Shown here piece after piece: positions 47,866 to 59,491 of a stretch of 64,000 bases of DNA. Source of the stretch: Candidatus Tepidiaquacella proteinivora (GTDB taxonomy: Bacteria; Bacteroidota; Ignavibacteria; Tepidaquicellales; Tepidaquicellaceae). Below the pieces are notes generated by a model. The model saw only the letters and a list, made by a program, of their open reading frames with translations. It did not search any database and was not told the origin of the DNA. The DNA is taken from NCBI GenBank assembly GCA_013348845.1, contig CP054675.1, forward strand, positions 1,125,501 to 1,189,500, read 5' to 3'. The translations under genes and the position numbers were made by a program. Every line of letters starts with the position of its first letter. The stretch's first letter is position 1.

Positions 47866-48045
47866 AAGCTATTCATTTATTACTTACAAAATTACAAAAA
47901 TTTAAAAGTAAAAAGTAATTAGTTTCTATTCTGTATCATATAATTATGCTTTCTTAAAAGAAAGATATAGATTATTATTAACTTGATAAAACTGAACTTT
48001 AATATTAACTTAGTGGTTAATAAAAATAAAAAAAATTTAAATACT

Positions 48046-49329
48046 ATGGCAGAAATATATAAAGAACCTGCTCCTTATAAAAAGGATGTAGATAACCCCT
48101 ATGAATCAATGATGGTTCGTTTTGATAAAGCGGCAGAGTTAATTAATCTGGATGAAGGGGTATATAATTATTTAAAACTCCCGGTGAAGCAAGTAATTGT
48201 CTCTATACCAATACAAATGGATAATGGTAAGGTCGTTGCATTTGAAGGGTATAGAGTAATACATAATAATGCTCTTGGTCCCTCAAAAGGTGGCGTCAGG
48301 TTTGCTCCTGATGTTGATTTAGATGAAGTGAAAGCACTTGCAGCATGGATGACCTGGAAATGTGCAATAGCCAATATTCCATTCGGAGGAGCAAAAGGTG
48401 GTGTAAGATGTGATCCAAACAAACTTTCAATGTCTGAACTTGAAAAAATAACACGAAGATATACAGCAAATTTATTAGAAATCTTCGGACCAGATACGGA
48501 CATTCCTGCACCAGATATGAATACCAATGAGCAAATTATGGCATGGATAATGGATACCTACAGCATGCATGACAGAAAAACAGTAACTGGTGTAGTTACC
48601 GGGAAACCTTTGATTATAGGTGGTTCAAGAGGAAGACGTGAAGCAACCGGTAGAGGAGTTATGTTAGCGACACTTGCAGCATTAATGAAAAAAGGTGTTA
48701 ATCCTGAAGATACAACTGCAGTAGTACAGGGATTTGGAAATGTAGGGTCAGTAAGTGCAAAATTGCTCAATGAAAAAGGATGTAAAATCATTGGTATAAG
48801 CGATGTTACAGGAGGATATTATAATGAAAAAGGTATTGACATCAATAAAGCAATAGAATATGTAAATAAAAATAAATTTCTTGAAGGTGGCAATTTCGGT
48901 GATAAAATTACAAATGAAGAGTTACTCGAACTTAAATGCGACATCCTTGTACCAGCGGCAAAAGAAGACCAAATAACAGTTGAAAATGCAAGCAGAATAA
49001 AAGCAAGACTTATTGTTGAAGGAGCAAATGGTCCGACTTCTGCTGATGCTGACCAGATTTTAATGGATAAAGGAATTATGGTAATACCTGATATACTTGC
49101 TAATTCCGGTGGAGTTATTGTTTCTTATTTTGAATGGGTACAGGATAGAATAGGTTATTTCTGGGACGAATTAGATATCGAACATCGACTGACAAGAATG
49201 ATGAATGAAGCATTTGAGAATGTCTATCTATCAGCATTAAACTATGAAACCACACTCAGATTAGGTGCATATATATATGCTATTCAAAAAGTAGCAAATG
49301 CATTGAAACTAAGAGGAATATATAGCTAA
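48046..49329 (+). CDS. Glutamate dehydrogenase family protein (second copy)
   Basis: The complete 427-residue Glu/Leu/Phe/Val dehydrogenase interconverts glutamate and 2-oxoglutarate. I use the ATG at 48046; an upstream TTG (47983) would add an unconserved 21-residue tail. Key segments: GPSKGGVRFAP, the catalytic lysine in PFGGAKGGVRCDP, DIPAPDMNTN, the Rossmann turn QGFGNVGS, and VEGANGPTSADAD near the end. It is only a moderate relative of the copy at the left edge (for instance, GPSKGG against GPGKGG and different loops). Divergent from the MFS gene. Confidence 0.95.
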   Translation: MAEIYKEPAPYKKDVDNPYESMMVRFDKAAELINLDEGVYNYLKLPVKQVIVSIPIQMDNGKVVAFEGYRVIHNNALGPSKGGVRFAPDVDLDEVKALAAWMTWKCAIANIPFGGAKGGVRCDPNKLSMSELEKITRRYTANLLEIFGPDTDIPAPDMNTNEQIMAWIMDTYSMHDRKTVTGVVTGKPLIIGGSRGRREATGRGVMLATLAALMKKGVNPEDTTAVVQGFGNVGSVSAKLLNEKGCKIIGISDVTGGYYNEKGIDINKAIEYVNKNKFLEGGNFGDKITNEELLELKCDILVPAAKEDQITVENASRIKARLIVEGANGPTSADADQILMDKGIMVIPDILANSGGVIVSYFEWVQDRIGYFWDELDIEHRLTRMMNEAFENVYLSALNYETTLRLGAYIYAIQKVANALKLRGIYS

Positions 49330-49337
49330 TATAAAGA

Positions 49338-49958
49338 ATGAAATATAATTCATTACTTATAATTCTTTTATTTCTTTTTAGTTTTTCTGTTTATTCACAA
49401 GAGAATAACGAAAGACCAAAAACGAATTTAGAATTAATTAATTCAATTTTACAAAAGAATTTCGAAGACTGTATAGAATATATTAATATTTTAGGTAGCA
49501 ATAAGAAATATTTAATTAAAAAAGAAAATCAAAGTGAAGTTAATGAATACATAATTAAATTATTTAAACGAACTTATGTAAATTATAAATTCTTCAGTGA
49601 TGAAAAAAAAGCAGAAAGTGATTATGTAATTAATTTTAAAAATGTAAAAATTGAAACACTATATAATTTTGAAAATAATAACTTAATTTTTGATAAATAT
49701 ATACAGAGACAAATTTTCTGTGGCTTTACTTTCTCTATTTCAGACAATGATTCGATCCTTTATAATTATGATTTTACTAATCGAATAAAAGATACAATAA
49801 ATTATATTTATATTGATTATATAGAATCTGACAATTACCAATTTACAAAAGGGATAATGCCAAAGGAAGGATTTTGGGATAAATACTTAATTCCCGGAAG
49901 TGCGATTTTGGTTTCTGCAATAGCAATTATTTTATTTTTTACAATTAGAAGTAAATAA
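49338..49958 (+). CDS. Hypothetical protein, exported with C-terminal membrane anchor
   Basis: The 206-residue protein has a signal peptide (about 1-20) and a single C-terminal helix (about 183-202) followed by Arg-Ser-Lys, so most of it would lie outside the cytoplasm. The middle is Asn/Tyr/Lys-rich with mixed strands and helices. I do not recognise a family. The start lies 8 nt after the glutamate dehydrogenase stop and the stop 9 nt before the BamD-like gene, so it may share their transcript. Confidence 0.62.
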   Translation: MKYNSLLIILLFLFSFSVYSQENNERPKTNLELINSILQKNFEDCIEYINILGSNKKYLIKKENQSEVNEYIIKLFKRTYVNYKFFSDEKKAESDYVINFKNVKIETLYNFENNNLIFDKYIQRQIFCGFTFSISDNDSILYNYDFTNRIKDTINYIYIDYIESDNYQFTKGIMPKEGFWDKYLIPGSAILVSAIAIILFFTIRSK

Positions 49959-51217: not shown

Positions 51218-51844
51218 ATGATAGAACTCATATGTGAAAATTTAGAGAAAAGATTCATTAATAAATTAATTTTTAAAGGGGTAACTTTTAGCTTAAAAAA
51301 AGGTGATTCTCTGGCAATTACAGGAAGAAATGGAAGTGGTAAATCAACACTTATAAAAATTATTGCAAACTTAATTAAAGCCACTTCTGGAAAGATAACA
51401 TTCAGAATAAATAATAAAGAAATTTTAAAAGAAGACTTTATTAGATTTATAGGATTTTGTGCTCCATACTTTAATTTGTATGAAGAATTAACTGCTTATG
51501 AAAATCTCGAATTGTTTATGAAATTAAAATGTGAAGGTGAAAGTGTGAAAGAAAAAATCAATAATCTTTTAAATAAGGTTAATTTATATCACTGTAGGAA
51601 CAACCCTGTCAGAGAATATTCTACAGGAATGAAACAAAAGCTAAAACTTGCTTTTGCATTAATAAATGAACCATTGCTTTTATTATTAGATGAGCCTCAG
51701 TCCAATCTTGATTTTGAAGGAATAGAATTAATAAACAATATTATTGAAGAACAAAACAACAGGGGTATTCTAATTTTAGCTTCAAATGAAATATGGGAAC
51801 CTACATTGTTTAATATTACTCTAAATATTGAAAACTTTAAATAA
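51218..51844 (+). CDS. ABC transporter ATP-binding protein, CcmA-like
   Basis: The 208-residue ATPase has Walker A GRNGSGKSTL, Q-loop region FCAPYFNLYEELTAYENL, signature YSTGMKQKLKLA and Walker B LLLLLDEPQSNLD. The short length and TAYENLELFMKL fit the CcmA/ABC-A subgroup (heme exporter or related). No permease gene is adjacent, so the partner is unknown; CcmB is not in the window. The gene ends before convergent glnA-like. Confidence 0.9.
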   Translation: MIELICENLEKRFINKLIFKGVTFSLKKGDSLAITGRNGSGKSTLIKIIANLIKATSGKITFRINNKEILKEDFIRFIGFCAPYFNLYEELTAYENLELFMKLKCEGESVKEKINNLLNKVNLYHCRNNPVREYSTGMKQKLKLAFALINEPLLLLLDEPQSNLDFEGIELINNIIEEQNNRGILILASNEIWEPTLFNITLNIENFK

Positions 51845-51890: not shown

Positions 51891-53255
51891 CTATAAATTT
51901 TTTGTCCTGTAGTTAATCCAGTAATTAATCATTTCTTCACTAAATACATTTCCAGCTCTTAGATATTCGTTATCTTTTCTTAAATTCTCTATAGCATTTT
52001 CTAAAGTTGTTGGTATCTTAACATTGATATTTTGATTATTATCAGGTTTTGCATCATTATTCACTTCCAATTGATTACCTATGTTAAAATTATTTACTAC
52101 ACCATCAATACCAGCCATTAAAATAGCAGAAAAAGCAAGATAGGGATTTGCATTTGCATCAGGAATTCTAAACTCAATTCTTTTTCTTTTTAAATTAGAA
52201 GTAATAGGAATTCTTATTGCCGACTTTCTATTGCTAACGGAATAAGAAATTTCTATCATCCTTTGTTTATTAACTATAAAACGATTGTAGGAATCATTAG
52301 TGGGATTTGTAAATGCAAGCAAAGAAGGTATATGATAAAGTATTCCGCTTATGAACTTAAGAGCCAATTCTGATAGTCCTGCGTATTTATCGCCGTTCAT
52401 AATATTTTCACCTTTTTTCCAAAGTGAAATATGCACATGAAGAGTATTATCTAAATTATCGAACGCTGGTTTTGAAATGAATGTTGCAGTTTTCCCGAAA
52501 GATTTTGCAACATTTCTCACTATATTTTTAAAAACCATAAATATATCAGCAGACTCGATAAGCGAAGAATATTTGAAACTGATTTCATTCTGACCTGCGA
52601 ATGCGGATTCACAATGATGTCTTTCAACTTCAATATCTGCTTTTAAAAGTTTTTGGACTATTTGTTCTCTAATAAAATAAGATTCATCATCAGGCGGGGT
52701 AAATAAATATCCATACCTGTCACAATTGGGGTGTAGTTTTATCTTATTTTCAGCTTCTGATTTTTCATTAAATTCATTGGATACAAATTTATTCAAATCA
52801 AAGATGAAAAACTTAGATTCAGCCCCAATATAAATATTATCAGCAATTTCTGTTTCTTTTAAGTAATTGATAGATTTTTTTGCTATGCTTCGTGGATCAA
52901 GTGAAAAAGGTTTTTTTTCTCTTGGGTCATAAACATCACATAATAAAATTGCCGTGATTGGATCCATTATTGTATCAATACGAGCAGTCGCAGGATCCGG
53001 AATAACCGTTAAATCGGAATCAACAATATCCTTCCAGTCACAAATAAGCGAACCGTCAATATTGAAACCTTCAAAAAAAATATCCCGTTCTAATTGAATT
53101 ACTGGTATAGTAAATTGCCTCCACTCACCTAATGAATCAGTAAATCTGAAATCGATATTTTTTGCTTCTTTTTCCTTAACTAATTTAAAAACATCATCGA
53201 TTAATTTAATTCGTCTAAGTTGTTCTTCTTTAAAGGATTTGTTATCTATGGACAT
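51891..53255 (-). CDS. Glutamine synthetase-like protein with degenerate active site
   Basis: A 454-residue homologue of type I glutamine synthetase; most segments match bacterial GlnA in order (HPNCDRYGYLFTPP, ERHHCESAFAGQNEI, NVAKSFGKTATF, IPDANANPYLAF). Compared with Salmonella GlnA from memory, several catalytic positions differ: Lys148 replaces metal-binding Glu131 (GAESKFF for GPEPEFF), Leu268-Asp269 replace glutamate-binding Asn264-Gly265, and the flap PGYEAP is VNKQRM, so Gln331 replaces Glu327. His273, His275, Arg325, Arg343, Arg348, Glu361 and Arg363 are kept. It may be inactive, regulatory, or use another substrate. It lies 37 nt after an apparently intact paralogue. Confidence 0.85.
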   Translation of the reverse strand: MSIDNKSFKEEQLRRIKLIDDVFKLVKEKEAKNIDFRFTDSLGEWRQFTIPVIQLERDIFFEGFNIDGSLICDWKDIVDSDLTVIPDPATARIDTIMDPITAILLCDVYDPREKKPFSLDPRSIAKKSINYLKETEIADNIYIGAESKFFIFDLNKFVSNEFNEKSEAENKIKLHPNCDRYGYLFTPPDDESYFIREQIVQKLLKADIEVERHHCESAFAGQNEISFKYSSLIESADIFMVFKNIVRNVAKSFGKTATFISKPAFDNLDNTLHVHISLWKKGENIMNGDKYAGLSELALKFISGILYHIPSLLAFTNPTNDSYNRFIVNKQRMIEISYSVSNRKSAIRIPITSNLKRKRIEFRIPDANANPYLAFSAILMAGIDGVVNNFNIGNQLEVNNDAKPDNNQNINVKIPTTLENAIENLRKDNEYLRAGNVFSEEMINYWINYRTKNL

Positions 53256-53292: not shown

Positions 53293-54831
53293 TTAATTCT
53301 TATGTAAATCTTTATGAAGGATATATTTTAATTTTTCCTGTCTTTCTTTATTTTTTAATTTTGATAGTTGTTTTCTTAAGTTTTTATCATTTTCCTTTTC
53401 AAGCGATGATATGGTATAGTCAATTGCGCTTTTAGAAAATATATTTTCAAACTCATAAAAACTTCTCTTAGATTTCAAAATTTTAGCTGAACTTGCACAA
53501 CTGTCAGGTAAACTTTTCAAAGTTTCCAGAATTTTTTTATCTTTAAAAATATTTCCATGGACTTTACATTTATTTGCAATTTCAATAGCCTGTTCAGAAT
53601 TTAAGAATCCCCATAAAGCAGCCATAGTTATTCCTGCAAGTAACAAATGAGAATTTGCGCTACCATCAGGAGACCTGAATTCGACAGTTTGCATATTATC
53701 AACCTCAATTGGCTCGGCAGGACATTTGGGATTTAATATTTTTGCAAGATTATTGATTTTAGACCAACCGAGAGGTATTCTAATCAAAGCACTTCTATTG
53801 GAACTGCTCCAACAAATTTTTGTTGGTGCCTCCTGATCGGGAACAAGTCTTAAATACGAAGAAGCAACTCTGTTACCAAAAGAAGTCAGAGAATCTGCAA
53901 ATTCACATAATCCGCCAATCAATTTATAAGTATCCTTTGATAATTCTTTATTTTCATCTACTGTTGCATTCTTTCCATCTTTAATTAACTTCAAATGAAT
54001 ATGCATTCCATTACCTGCAACTCCATCTTCCAATTTAGGAGCAAATGTAGCCATCATACCATATTTCGCAGCGATATTCCTAATTAACCATTTAGAAATA
54101 ACAATAGCATCAGCAGCCTCTTCAACCGGAGCAGATAAAAGTTCAATTTCAAGCTGTTCACCTGACAAACCATTTAACTCAGTTACTGGACTTTTTATTT
54201 TTTCAATATATCCAACTTCACTGTGTGCATATTTAACATTATTCAGAATTTGAGTAATAATTCTTAATAATTCTGATAAAATACCACAAGATTTTATATA
54301 TGGTCCTGAAGCGTGGTATCCTCTTTGCTTAAGAGGATAATAAAGTTCATTATCGGGTTTATAAAATAAATAAAATTCCATTTCACCAAAAGCATGTAAA
54401 TCCAATCCTGTATATTGGGAAAATAAGTTACTTGCTTTCATTAAAATGCTATCAGGTGTAAAAGGAGCAAGTTCTCCATCAGCAGTAATGTACCTGCAAA
54501 TAAAATCTAAACTCGCTGGCTGAAAAGGATTAAAAAAAGCAGTTTTCCAAATAGGAACAACATATAAATCAGATAATGCAGTATCTATCATACCTTTAAA
54601 TAAAGATGAACCATCAACTCTCTCCCCTTCAGTTAGTACTATTTCCGCATTTTTCCTACCGGGTATTGGTATCTGCATCTCTTTTAATTTACCATCCAGA
54701 GCGGTATAGTGAAAAGTTATTCTTTCAATATTTTTTTCCTGAATGATTTTTAAAAAATCTTCTCGTGTAAAATCTTCTTTGGGTTTGTTTAATAAAACAC
54801 TAATGGGATTTGAAAGGGCATAATTGAACAT
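53293..54831 (-). CDS. Glutamine synthetase family protein, likely active
   Basis: The 512-residue type I family member keeps both Glu residues of the first metal motif (GEMEFYLF), the N-G-M-H-I-H motif, and the flap SSYLRLVPDQEAPTKICW with its catalytic Glu. NRSALIRIPLGW and VEFRSPDGSANSHLLLA follow. Between the second metal-ligand segments there is an insert of about 20 residues (KIKSPVTELNGLSGEQ) compared with E. coli GlnA. It probably makes glutamine or a gamma-glutamyl product from glutamate, ATP and ammonia or an amine. It stands between the DHOD-like gene and the degenerate paralogue. Confidence 0.85.
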   Translation of the reverse strand: MFNYALSNPISVLLNKPKEDFTREDFLKIIQEKNIERITFHYTALDGKLKEMQIPIPGRKNAEIVLTEGERVDGSSLFKGMIDTALSDLYVVPIWKTAFFNPFQPASLDFICRYITADGELAPFTPDSILMKASNLFSQYTGLDLHAFGEMEFYLFYKPDNELYYPLKQRGYHASGPYIKSCGILSELLRIITQILNNVKYAHSEVGYIEKIKSPVTELNGLSGEQLEIELLSAPVEEAADAIVISKWLIRNIAAKYGMMATFAPKLEDGVAGNGMHIHLKLIKDGKNATVDENKELSKDTYKLIGGLCEFADSLTSFGNRVASSYLRLVPDQEAPTKICWSSSNRSALIRIPLGWSKINNLAKILNPKCPAEPIEVDNMQTVEFRSPDGSANSHLLLAGITMAALWGFLNSEQAIEIANKCKVHGNIFKDKKILETLKSLPDSCASSAKILKSKRSFYEFENIFSKSAIDYTISSLEKENDKNLRKQLSKLKNKERQEKLKYILHKDLHKN

Positions 54832-54902: not shown

Positions 54903-55898
54903 TTATCTTATTTTGTATGAGTTTAAAATCTTCATATAATTTGCTCTTGCGAATGCAGCAGGATCGGCAACTGATTTTTGACTCATACTTCCTTTCATTG
55001 TTTCTATAGAATCATATTCATGGTCTTCCATCCACTTTTTCATATTTTCTAAAATCTCAGTTATTCTTGATACACCATTTCTCAATAATTCAGAACAAAT
55101 CATAGCAACATCTCCACCTACCATTAAAACTTTAATTACATCATTGTGATTTTGAACTCCACTTGTTGCCGCAAGAGATGCTTTAATTTTTCCAAATAAT
55201 ATAGCAATCCATCGTAAAGGTAATCTCAGTTCCCAATTTGTACTAAGAGAAAGGTCTGGTACTACTTCAAGACTTTCGATATCCAAATCAGGTTGGTAAA
55301 ATCTATTAAATAATACAAGTCCATCTGCACCAGCGTCATCCAGTTTTTTACAAAAATTTGCAGTAGCAGAGAAATATGGACTAAGTTTCATAGCAACCGG
55401 GATTTTAACAGCGGATTTTACTTCTTTCAAATTATTCAAATATATTTCTTCTATCTTTTTACTATCGGTATCAATATCAGTAGCAAGATAGTAAACATTT
55501 AATTCAATAGCATCGGCACCAGCCTCTTCTATTTGTTTAGCATATTTCGTCCAACCACTACTGGATACACCATTAAGACTTCCAATTACTGGTATTCCGA
55601 GTGATTTTTTTGCTTTCTGAATATGTTCCAGACATTCTTCCGGGCCAAGATAATATTCATTTTGTTTTGGGAAATAAGTTAATGCTTCTGCATAAGACTC
55701 TGTTCCATAAGTTGTAAAATAATTATACTCTTGTTCTTCATAAGTAATTTGTTCTTCAAATAATGAGTGAAGAACAACAGCAGATGCTCCTGCATCTTCA
55801 AGTGATTTTAAAGTATCCAATTCTTTTGATAAAGGAGAAGATGAAGGTACAATGGGATTTTTTAATTTTAACCCTAAATATTTTGTTGATAAATCCAT
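54903..55898 (-). CDS. Dihydroorotate dehydrogenase-like protein, PFOR-associated
   Basis: The 331-residue TIM-barrel flavoprotein matches class 1 DHOD: the N-terminus LGLKLKNPIVPSSSPLSK, then GLVLFNRFYQPD and later ATSGVQNHNDVIKVLMVGGD (FMN phosphate site). True DHODs have a catalytic Cys or Ser loop; here the corresponding region AIELNVYYLATD is altered. This subgroup is known as a DHOD-like protein that follows pyruvate:ferredoxin oxidoreductase in Bacteroidota and relatives; its substrate is unknown. It starts 20 nt after nifJ. Confidence 0.87.
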   Translation of the reverse strand: MDLSTKYLGLKLKNPIVPSSSPLSKELDTLKSLEDAGASAVVLHSLFEEQITYEEQEYNYFTTYGTESYAEALTYFPKQNEYYLGPEECLEHIQKAKKSLGIPVIGSLNGVSSSGWTKYAKQIEEAGADAIELNVYYLATDIDTDSKKIEEIYLNNLKEVKSAVKIPVAMKLSPYFSATANFCKKLDDAGADGLVLFNRFYQPDLDIESLEVVPDLSLSTNWELRLPLRWIAILFGKIKASLAATSGVQNHNDVIKVLMVGGDVAMICSELLRNGVSRITEILENMKKWMEDHEYDSIETMKGSMSQKSVADPAAFARANYMKILNSYKIR

Positions 55899-55918: not shown

Positions 55919-58900
55919 TTAAATTTCTTCTTTTTTATCAGTTCCGTTTAATGCTAATTTTTTATAAAGTTTGATTTTATTATAAACATCTTGTTGAGCT
56001 AATTCAAGTAATTTCTTTGCGTGTTCAGGATGGGACTTTGTAAGCATTTTATACCGGGTTTCTTTATAAGCATAATCCTCAAATTTAATCTTTGCTTCTA
56101 CTGAATCAAGCTTCAATGGATTCATTCCTTTTTTCGCTAAATCAGGATTATATCTTAATAATTGCCAATATCCACTATCAACAGCAGCTTTCTGATTTTC
56201 TATTGCTTTACCCATATCAATTCCATGTGCAATACAATGGCAGTATGCAACTATAAGGGATGGTCCTTCATAAGCTTCTGCTTCAAGAAATGCTCTAAGA
56301 CATTGTAAATCATTTGCAGCCATTGCAACTTTTGCGACATAAACACTTCCGTATGCCATTGCCATAATTGCTAAATCTTTTTTGGGAGTCGGTTTACCTG
56401 AAGCAGCAAATTTAGCAACAGCACCTAACCCTGTTGCTTTTGAACATTGTCCACCAGTGTTAGAATATACTTCAGTATCTAATACAAGTAGATTAACATT
56501 TTTACCTGAGGCAATCACATGATCTAATCCTCCATATCCGATATCATAAGCCCAACCATCACCACCAATAATCCATACAGATTTTTTAACTAAATAATCT
56601 GCTATTTCATATAATATTTTTGCATCATCATTATTTAGAGAAAAGAGTTTTTCTTTTAATATTTTCACTCTTTCCCTTTGTAAATGAATACCTAATTCAG
56701 TTGATTGGTCAGCATTTATTATTTCTGTAACCAAATCATCACCAATCAGAGAAGAATTCCTAAGTAATAATTCCTTAGCAAATTGATTTTGCTTATCTAT
56801 AGATAGTCTCATTCCAAAACCGAATTCTGCATTGTCTTCAAAAAGTGAGTTTGACCAGGCAGGACCTCTTCCTTCTTTATTAAATGTCCAGGGAGTTGTT
56901 GGTAAATTTCCCCCATAAATTGATGAACAACCTGTGGCATTTGCAATAATTGTTCTATCACCGAATAATTGTGATAACAGCTTAAGATATGGCGTTTCAC
57001 CACATCCTGCGCAAGCACCAGAATATTCAAATAAAGGTTGTAAGAATTGACTTCCTTTTATTGTTGAAATATTTAATTTACCTCGATCATATTCCGGAAT
57101 ATTGAGAAAGAATTCGAGATTTTCTCTCTCCGTAATTCGTAATGGAATTTGGGGTGCCATATTCAGCGCTTTGTGTTTTACTTCTTTCTTACTTTTTGCT
57201 GGACAAATCTCACAACAAAGTTCACAACCAGTACAATCTTCCACTGCTACCTGAATTGTGTATAAAGTATCCGGTGGAAATTCTTTACCTTTTGCTTTTG
57301 TCCATTTAAAAGTACTTGGAGCACCCTGCAAATATTTTTCACTATATACCTTGGTCCTTATCGCAGCATGTGGACAAATCATAGCACACTTACCACACTG
57401 AATACAAAGTTCTGCATCCCATACCGGTACTTCAAGCGCAATATTTCTCTTTTCCCATTGTGTGGTTCCACTCGGGAATGTACCATCAACAGGCATTTCG
57501 CTAACAGGAATTTCATCACCCAATCCTTCCATAATTTTTGCTAATGTCTTTTTAACATATTCAGGAGCTTTATCAGAAACCACTGGTGGTAATTCAATTT
57601 CACTTATATCTTTTTCGCTTACTTCAACCTTATAAAGTTTAGCTAATGTCTTATCTACCGCTTCAAAATTCTTTTTCACAATTTCTTCACCTTTAGATCC
57701 ATAGGTTTTCTTAATTGATTTTTTAATTTGTTCTATGGCTTCATCTTTTGGCAGAACTCCTGAAATTGCAAAGAAACAGGTTTGCATTATTGTATTTATT
57801 CTCGTACCCATACCAGTTTCTTTTGCAACTGAATATCCATCGATTACATAGAAATTTAGCTTTTTATCTATAATTTGTTTGCAAACCTTTTTGGGTAGTT
57901 TTTTAAATACTTCTTCTTTTGGATATGGACTGTTTAATAGAAAAGTACCACCATCTTTAATAGTTTTTAGAACATCAAATTTTTCGAGTAATGTGAACTG
58001 ATGACAACCAATAAAATCTGCTTTCTGAATCAGATAAGTTGATTTAATTGGTTTCTTTCCGAATCTTAAATGTGATATAGTAGTTGAACCAGATTTTTTC
58101 GAATCATATACAAAATATCCCTGCGCAAAATTATCAGTTTCTTCTCCGATAATCTTAATCGTATTTTTATTTGCCCCAACAGTTCCATCAGCACCTAATC
58201 CAAAAAACATTGCAGCAAAAAGACCTTCCTTATCAGTATAGAAATTTTTATCATATTCAAGACTTGTAAAAGTTACATCATCATTAATTCCAACAGTAAA
58301 ATGATTTTTAGGATTCTCTTTTTTAAGTTCATCAAATACGGCTTTAACCATTGAAGGGGTAAATTCCTTTGATGATAAACCATATCTTCCACCAATAATT
58401 AAAGGCATATCTTTAAATGGAGCATTCCCATTTCTTAACTCTTCACTAATAGCTGCAATAACATCAATATATAATGGTTCTCCTACGCTTCCCGGTTCTT
58501 TTGTTCTATCAAGTACAGCAATTTTTTTCACGGTCGATGGTATGACAGAAACAAAATGTCTGGATGAAAAGGGTCTGTATAAACGAACTTTTATAATTCC
58601 AACTTTTTCTCCAAATTTTGATGTAAGATATTCTGTTGTTTCTTCAGCGGTTTCTGCACCAGACCCCATCAAAACTATTACTCTTTCAGCATCAGGAGCT
58701 CCATAATAATCGAAAAGATTATATCTTCTACCAATTAACTCATAAAATTTATCCATTACTTTTTGAACAATATCAGGACAAGCTTGATAGAATTTATTTA
58801 CGGCTTCTCTTCCCTGAAAATATACATCTGGATTTTGTGCAGTACCTCTGATAAAAGGTCTATCAGGACTTAAAGCTCTTTTACGGTGTTCTATAACAAA

Positions 58901-59491
58901 ATCATAATTAATAAATTTCTTAATATTTTCTTCTTCAATCATTTCAATCTTCATAACTTCCGCAGATGTCCTGAACCCATCGAAAAAATGTAAAAAAGGT
59001 ATTCTTGATTCAAGTGTAGCTTCCTGTGCAATAAGTGCTAAGTCCATTACTTCTTGAACTGAATTGGAGCAAAGAAGAGCAAATCCAGTTTGTCTTGTTG
59101 CCATAACATCACTGTGATCACCAAAAATAGAAAGTGCATGTGCCGATAATGAACGAGCCGAGACATGAAATACAGTTGGAGTTAATTCGCCAGCAATTTT
59201 ATACATATTAGGAATCATTAGTAAAAGACCCTGAGATGCAGTAAATGTTGTTGTCAAAGAACCACTTTGTAAAGATCCATGAACAGCACCAGCAGCCCCT
59301 CCTTCACTTTGCATCTCAGTAACAATAGGAACCGTACCCCAAATATTTTTCCTCCCTTCCGCTGACCATGCATCTGCTAATTCACCCATTGTAGAAGAAG
59401 GTGTAATTGGGTAAATTGCGATAACTTCATTAGTATTATGCGCAATATAAGCAGCTGCCTCATTTCCATCAATTGTAATTTTTTTAGCCAT
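55919..59491 (-). CDS. nifJ: Pyruvate:ferredoxin (flavodoxin) oxidoreductase
   Basis: The 1190-residue single-chain enzyme decarboxylates pyruvate to acetyl-CoA and reduces ferredoxin. Domains in order: the N-terminal transketolase-like domain (IAVYPITPSSTMGELA-like start), the core domain with TKEPGSVGEPLYIDVI, the 2x[4Fe-4S] ferredoxin domain with CIQCGKCAMICPHAAI and CTGCELCCEICP, and the TPP domain with CAGCGETPYLKLL, NATGCSSIYGG and GDGWAYDIGYGGLDHV. AGGAG lies before the ATG. Key to anaerobic carbon metabolism. Head of the run to the glutamine synthetases. Confidence 0.97.
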   Translation of the reverse strand: MAKKITIDGNEAAAYIAHNTNEVIAIYPITPSSTMGELADAWSAEGRKNIWGTVPIVTEMQSEGGAAGAVHGSLQSGSLTTTFTASQGLLLMIPNMYKIAGELTPTVFHVSARSLSAHALSIFGDHSDVMATRQTGFALLCSNSVQEVMDLALIAQEATLESRIPFLHFFDGFRTSAEVMKIEMIEEENIKKFINYDFVIEHRKRALSPDRPFIRGTAQNPDVYFQGREAVNKFYQACPDIVQKVMDKFYELIGRRYNLFDYYGAPDAERVIVLMGSGAETAEETTEYLTSKFGEKVGIIKVRLYRPFSSRHFVSVIPSTVKKIAVLDRTKEPGSVGEPLYIDVIAAISEELRNGNAPFKDMPLIIGGRYGLSSKEFTPSMVKAVFDELKKENPKNHFTVGINDDVTFTSLEYDKNFYTDKEGLFAAMFFGLGADGTVGANKNTIKIIGEETDNFAQGYFVYDSKKSGSTTISHLRFGKKPIKSTYLIQKADFIGCHQFTLLEKFDVLKTIKDGGTFLLNSPYPKEEVFKKLPKKVCKQIIDKKLNFYVIDGYSVAKETGMGTRINTIMQTCFFAISGVLPKDEAIEQIKKSIKKTYGSKGEEIVKKNFEAVDKTLAKLYKVEVSEKDISEIELPPVVSDKAPEYVKKTLAKIMEGLGDEIPVSEMPVDGTFPSGTTQWEKRNIALEVPVWDAELCIQCGKCAMICPHAAIRTKVYSEKYLQGAPSTFKWTKAKGKEFPPDTLYTIQVAVEDCTGCELCCEICPAKSKKEVKHKALNMAPQIPLRITERENLEFFLNIPEYDRGKLNISTIKGSQFLQPLFEYSGACAGCGETPYLKLLSQLFGDRTIIANATGCSSIYGGNLPTTPWTFNKEGRGPAWSNSLFEDNAEFGFGMRLSIDKQNQFAKELLLRNSSLIGDDLVTEIINADQSTELGIHLQRERVKILKEKLFSLNNDDAKILYEIADYLVKKSVWIIGGDGWAYDIGYGGLDHVIASGKNVNLLVLDTEVYSNTGGQCSKATGLGAVAKFAASGKPTPKKDLAIMAMAYGSVYVAKVAMAANDLQCLRAFLEAEAYEGPSLIVAYCHCIAHGIDMGKAIENQKAAVDSGYWQLLRYNPDLAKKGMNPLKLDSVEAKIKFEDYAYKETRYKMLTKSHPEHAKKLLELAQQDVYNKIKLYKKLALNGTDKKEEI

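Follow-up and report, generated by a model that had tools for sequence, protein, structure and literature searches.

The window analysed here, a stretch of 64,000 nucleotides from the genome of Candidatus Tepidiaquacella proteinivora (G000; contig CP054675.1), carries two glutamine synthetase (GS)-like genes that follow one another on the minus strand, the second lying 37 bp upstream of the first. We compared the locus with those of two other members of the genus, the separately assembled Ignavibacteria SKW224 (G002; L003, JAOADD010000054.1) and a third species (G001). The genes in and around the pair are:

47983..49329, plus strand: gene of the Glu/Leu/Phe/Val dehydrogenase family (PF00208, 254 bits; PF02812, 192 bits)
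49338..49958, plus strand: gene for a 206-aa protein without a Pfam match
51218..51844, plus strand: ABC-type ATPase
51891..53255, minus strand: predicted dead orthologue of type I GlnA, 454 aa, assigned from Pfam and NCBIfam matches, lesions common with G002, and the tree
53293..54831, minus strand: GS-like protein of a divergent clade, 512 aa, candidate working glutamine synthetase; the genome has no third PF00120 gene
54903..55898, minus strand, upstream: dihydroorotate-dehydrogenase-like protein (NF005741, 482 bits), a conserved neighbour in G001 and G002
55919..59491, minus strand, upstream: pyruvate:ferredoxin oxidoreductase (PF01855, 261 bits), a conserved neighbour by synteny

The dehydrogenase-family gene probably encodes a glutamate dehydrogenase that assimilates ammonium. 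The 206-aa protein has a counterpart in place in G002 (62% identity) and a recognisable one in genome G017 (31%), where a GS pair (L069, 2883-11246) is flanked by what we read by eye as hydrogenase-maturation-like genes. No permease gene was seen beside the ABC-type ATPase gene, which is convergent with the 454-aa gene across 46 bases, is 62% identical between the window and G002 and has diverged at the same pace as the dead GlnA. Neither PII nor GlnE was detected in the three genus genomes (0/3 each), and a search of the same genomes for GOGAT domains returned only partial matches of ~100 profile positions above Pfam's low cut-off, which are candidates for other flavin or TIM-barrel proteins. 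In the absence of PII, GlnE and a complete GOGAT domain, these three genomes must control nitrogen in some other way.

The 51891-53255 reading frame begins with ATG and contains no internal stop. Its product carries both Pfam GS domains, PF03951 (residues 31-110) and PF00120 (304 bits, residues 118-451), which places it among homologues of type I glutamine synthetase. The best NCBIfam model is TIGR00653 (type I GlnA), which it matches with 413.8 bits, below the curated cut-off of 429.15. Alignment to Salmonella GlnA (2gls) matched residues 20-453. The first-pass annotation had described an alignment over the whole length, which is only nearly the case: the central loop is short of ~13 residues, and the C terminus lacks the ~30 residues that according to passages of PMC6076278 form a helical thong in other type I enzymes. 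An AlphaFold model of the protein, built on a two-row alignment, has a pLDDT of 33.4, too low for the model to be used.

The alignment to 2gls was used to assign Salmonella numbering to the protein. Four segments, all on the minus strand, depart from the type I active site:

52809..52826: GAESKF, residues 144-149; E129 is kept (E146) and the n1 metal ligand E131 is replaced by K148
52434..52457: NLDNTLHV, residues 267-274; N264L, G265D, S266N, G267T and M268L, with H269 kept
52257..52274: VNKQRM, residues 328-333; the Glu flap PGYEAP is destroyed, with E327 replaced by Q331
53034..53057: DGSLICDW, residues 67-74; D50 and W57 are kept, S53 is replaced by L70 and R55 by C72

The unusual residues singled out by the first-pass annotation (GAESKFF with Lys148, Leu268-Asp269, and VNKQRM with Gln331) are all present and fall on E131, N264/G265 and E327. 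The orthologue in G002, 64% identical to the 454-aa protein, carries GAESKFF, LDNTLH and SNKKSS in the corresponding positions, so that its flap also lacks the Glu, with letters that differ from those of the window. For comparison we used 28 intact GlnA (G001 and 27 others), namely those sequences recovered as loci in the family survey, minus the window and G002, which is a subset of all GlnA matches of that survey. E131, N264, G265 and E327 are invariant in 28/28 of them, as is S53, and all five are lost in both the window and G002 copies. The earlier claim that ordinary glutamine synthetase activity is beyond this protein is well supported by this comparison. With K148, L268-D269 and Q331 at the positions of E131, N264-G265 and E327, and the same loss in G002, the 454-aa protein is almost certainly dead as a glutamine synthetase.

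Much of the remaining site is still in place. Both dead copies keep E129, E207, E212, E220, H269, H271, S273, R321, R339 and R344, as well as R355, E357, R359, D50, W57, D64 and Y179. The roles of E207, E212, E220, E357 and H271 are those of the residues in Salmonella GlnA. Of the 208 columns that are invariant across the 28 intact GlnA, both dead copies leave 109 untouched, and 99 are altered in one or both; in 80 columns both copies depart from the intact residue, and in 49 of those 80 they share the same replacement residue or gap. The residues for ATP, the n2 metal and the glutamate carboxylate, together with E212/E220, are kept in 13/13 cases, against 109/208 invariant columns overall. 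The corresponding retention P-values (0.01, 1.6e-4 and 0.008) refer to residue sets picked after the alignment had been viewed and are illustrative, no proof. In H. pylori GS, passages of PMC6076278 list the equivalents of S273, F225, R355 and R339 among the ATP contacts and describe the equivalents of E131 and G265 as holding the amino group of the substrate (H. pylori numbers converted to the Salmonella scheme by a shift of 10). Because of these contacts and of the pattern of kept and lost residues, the protein looks intact where it would bind ATP and the glutamate carboxylate, while the amino-group side, the n1 metal, the ammonium site and the flap are, as read from the alignment, lost. Lys148 may face E216 and E224, replace the n1 metal ion and so stabilise an empty site.

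The order pyruvate:ferredoxin oxidoreductase, dihydroorotate-dehydrogenase-like gene, 53293-54831 gene, glnA is identical in G000, G001 and G002, and at the same locus G001 has an intact 484-aa GlnA with central loop and thong. In the tree the 454-aa protein falls inside GlnA, apart from the clade of its neighbour; the dead pair has the G001 GlnA as its sister (support 100/99), and the dead clade itself is supported at 100/100. The stem of the dead pair measures 0.89 changes per column, against 0.12 for G001, with tips of 0.45 and 0.26; in this tree the bootstrap values had yet to settle fully, and the 454-aa protein was flagged as a long branch. The first-pass annotation had called the gene a paralogue. 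Tree and synteny instead make it orthologous to the main glnA of the family, and the gene beside it is a distant relative (~30% identical). Because of the tree, the synteny and the lesions common to the dead pair, we read the 454-aa gene as the family's ordinary type I glnA, which died in place and is no side copy; by the same comparison it died later than the divergence from G001 and earlier than that between the window and G002 copies. Compared with type I GlnA (TIGR00653; 2gls), the protein is alike in sequence over residues 20-453, in descent, in locus and in its ATP and n2-metal positions, and differs by the loss of the n1 ligand, the N loop, the flap, S53, the central loop, the adenylylation site and the thong.

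The first-pass annotation had also suggested looking for the same substitutions in close relatives, and had taken normal orthologues as a sign that the sequence itself was in error. More distant orthologues are indeed normal, yet the nearest, that of G002, carries the same lesions, and a sequencing error is ruled out by the separate assembly of that genome. No further dead GlnA besides those of G000 and G002 stood out by score in 29 family or 391 class genomes, a screen in which residues were inspected in the aligned sequences only and in which the loss of a single residue elsewhere may have escaped notice.

The lesions common to the two dead copies predate their split, so a comparison of the window with G002 gauges selection after death. 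Counting by NG86 gave dN 0.266, dS 1.63 and an omega of 0.164 for the dead glnA. For the same genome pair, omega was 0.053 for the 53293-54831 gene, 0.025 for the glutamate-dehydrogenase-family gene, 0.163 for the ABC-type ATPase and 0.186 for the gene of the 206-aa protein. Codon maximum likelihood gave an omega of 0.041 for the dead pair and rejected omega = 1 (2ΔlnL 332.7); synonymous sites are saturated (ML dS 4.6 to 11), so that omega is approximate and our conclusions draw solely on its ranking and on neutrality being rejected. Under neutral drift, a divergence of only 0.3 substitutions per site would leave a mean of 19 stops, and the dead glnA has none. The gene evolves fast yet under constraint, with purifying selection continuing after catalysis was lost. 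The earlier argument against simple decay, for which a dN/dS measurement had been proposed, is borne out: neutrality is rejected, and purifying selection acts on the reading frame and on the protein outside the lost residues. The 454-aa protein is very probably kept for a function. With its catalytic residues lost and purifying selection after the loss, it qualifies, as far as sequence can tell, as a pseudoenzyme on both counts.

The one-contig genome of 2.40 Mb holds two PF00120 genes, the dead glnA and its neighbour. Type III GS (PF12437) had no match in the three genus genomes (3/59 overall). With two PF00120 matches and none to PF12437, a hidden third GS in the genome was ruled out. The neighbour is 88% identical between the window and G002, against 64% for the dead gene; the other genes of the stretch range from 62 to 94%. 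Its clade is present in 19/29 family genomes and, at E <= 1e-60, in 18/296 sampled phylum genomes. The members of this clade (53293-54831, L082-L089, L109 and L111) are about 500-523 aa long and have AGxGMH in place of NGxGMH; between the E212 and E220 positions they carry an insert, of ~15 aa in one subgroup, and in that subgroup an HKDxHKx C terminus is conserved.

The first-pass annotation had regarded the neighbour as intact, which is correct for most of its active site: the D50, S53, Y179, E129, E131, E212, E220, H269, R321, R339, E327, E357 and R359 positions are kept, and the ammonium-site residues D50, S53, Y179 and E327 are invariant in 11/11 aligned members of its clade. It does not extend to the equivalents of N264 and R355, which are Ala and Thr, respectively, in all 11. 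N264 is likewise missing from Streptomyces GlnA2, which passages of PMC8998196 describe as devoid of GS activity. In the phylum, 295/296 genomes carry one or more PF00120 genes, so a genome with no working GS would be unusual, and we consider it rather likely that the neighbour is the working glutamine synthetase of the two species with a dead GlnA. The company it keeps elsewhere bears on this assignment. When 20 genomes with the neighbour were checked for another GS, 12 had a strong type I enzyme, two the dead GlnA, four a type-III-like long GS and two (G018 and G335) nothing else. As the family of the neighbour usually sits beside another GS (16/20 genomes), it may have another substrate, and as four of the 20 genomes combine it with a type-III-like GS and no GlnA, it would not need GlnA as a partner.

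We put the probability of the following reading as a whole at roughly one half: glnA lost catalysis and was kept as a pseudoenzyme, and the neighbour makes glutamine and is joined or adjusted by it. In the ancestor of the two same-genus species, type I glnA would have lost catalysis and then been retained, and glutamine would now be made by the product of 53293-54831. The dead protein would still fold, could still bind nucleotide, and would join or adjust the neighbour, for example as a non-catalytic subunit in a mixed ring, where it might lend its Asp50 loop to the active site of the neighbour. GS active sites lie between two ring subunits, and of their elements only the Asp50 loop is contributed by the adjacent protomer (passages of PMC11957540); because of this arrangement, a dead subunit could complete the site of a live one. 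Counting against such lending, the dead protein's own Asp loop is without S53 and R55. The central loop and the thong of type I enzymes are absent from both the neighbour and the 454-aa protein and present in the G001 GlnA, which fits a mixed assembly and also plain loosening.

The 454-aa protein would most likely serve the neighbour as a pseudoenzyme subunit or as a modulator, so that of the two roles offered by the first-pass annotation the first, a pseudoenzyme that modulates the neighbour, is still the leading candidate. That the two proteins act together is possible, at somewhat less than even odds. Counting against a partnership, the neighbour did not change in a burst along this lineage, occurs elsewhere without GlnA and is adjacent to GlnA in only 9/19 of the family genomes that have it. 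No sign of co-evolution above background was seen in the neighbour along the dead lineage (12/214 conserved columns changed, against 12/208, 3/199, 17/213 and 7/203 in four other lineages). Dead paralogues that activate a partner are described in passages on the trypanosome prozymes of AdoMetDC (PMC5201418) and deoxyhypusine synthase (PMC3663545). The likeness to the systems of those passages lies in a dead homologue kept beside an active one and in the possible role as an activating subunit. They differ in that the present case is bacterial and concerns another enzyme, that its two proteins are ~30% identical and come from two old clades, and that the partnership is here a proposed one; the link between the 454-aa protein and the neighbour consists only of their position in the same gene row. 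The stronger form of the proposal is tentative and, in our view, unlikely: a two-component bacterial GS in which the ancestral GlnA would be an obligate non-catalytic subunit that gives shape to a ring or regulates it, and all working sites of that ring would lie in proteins of the second GS clade, an arrangement replacing the absent PII/GlnE control.

A further possibility, which we regard as unlikely but deserving of serious attention, is that the 454-aa protein is a pseudoenzyme with no dealings with its neighbour, serving as a nucleotide or amino-acid sensor, as a regulator of another protein, or in a structural role. Lengsin, a vertebrate class I GS-like lens protein in which the GS fold is reused without GS activity, illustrates the last of these. 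The lengsin structure 2j9i was matched at 1.5e-9, and the 454-aa protein would resemble it in reusing the GS fold without GS activity; lengsin has a eukaryotic lens role, whereas here the loss is recent and inside a bacterial genus. A stand-alone function is favoured by the retention of the ATP, n2 and glutamate-carboxylate positions, by the loss of thong and central loop, which suggests that the usual dodecamer is gone, and by the lack of PII and GlnE in the genus (0/3 each), so that the usual nitrogen sensors are missing. No regulator gene, however, was seen beside the dead glnA, and its place directly behind another GS gene points first to the protein of that gene.

A new ligase is improbable. 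On this account the 454-aa protein would activate glutamate or another acid with ATP and join it to a bulky amine without a flap or an ammonium site, much as in the flap-independent use of an amine substrate that the first-pass annotation had envisaged. The ATP site, R321, R359, H269, E212 and E220 are kept, and passages of PMC7948447 and PMC8998196 describe GS-like proteins without ammonium-site residues: gamma-glutamylmethylamide synthetase (RhGmaS), which works with Trp for the flap Glu and Ala for Asp50, and the gamma-glutamylpolyamine synthetases GlnA2/GlnA3. In the passages on RhGmaS (PMC7948447), Glu124 and Gly231 bind the glutamate analogue, Glu124 is among the Mg2+ ligands, and mutations of binding residues strongly cut activity. 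These two residues, equated with E131 and G265 by motif position and not by alignment, are Lys148 and Asp269 here. The pattern is the inverse of an amine ligase: the proteins described in those passages are active ligases, of which RhGmaS keeps its glutamate and metal ligands, whereas the 454-aa protein is without E131 and G265, has its n1 metal site broken and keeps D50. Its flap, moreover, reads VNKQRM in one species and SNKKSS in the other, which is not what a new active site under selection would be expected to show. The earlier suggestion is disfavoured by this comparison, and the 454-aa protein is probably no flapless amine ligase.

Still less probable is that neither gene makes glutamine, the neighbour being a gamma-glutamyl ligase for another amine and glutamine being taken from outside. 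The N264 and R355 equivalents are absent across the whole clade of the neighbour, which usually accompanies another GS (16/20), and both genomes, at 2.2 and 2.4 Mb, are small in a family whose other members span 2.3 to 4.6 Mb. Against this, a PF00120 gene is missing in only 1/296 phylum genomes, the neighbour retains D50, S53, Y179 and E327, unlike Streptomyces GlnA2 and GlnA3, and no GS gene besides it was detected in G335 and G018. A pseudogene that is decaying towards loss, for which the long stem and tips, the 99/208 altered columns and the truncated C terminus might speak, is refuted by frames that stayed open in both species across saturated synonymous divergence, by the rejection of omega = 1, by an omega like that of the nearby ABC-type ATPase gene (0.164 vs 0.163) and by the identical replacements (49 of the 80 doubly lost columns) common to both copies and then kept, and is extremely improbable.

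Glutamine synthetase is a textbook homo-oligomer and close to universal. A search of the open-access literature, which leaves most subscription journals outside its scope, turned up no paper on a bacterial GS pseudoenzyme; the same literature gave nothing on the residue numbers and nothing of use on Ignavibacteria and GS. At this locus the standard GS gene appears to have died in place and been kept, and a little-known second GS clade is the only candidate for an essential reaction. As a close relative (G001) has an intact gene at the same locus, the states before and after the loss are directly testable. The case would also provide a genetic argument that the neighbour's 511-523 aa GS clade in this phylum can make glutamine, and could correct annotations elsewhere.
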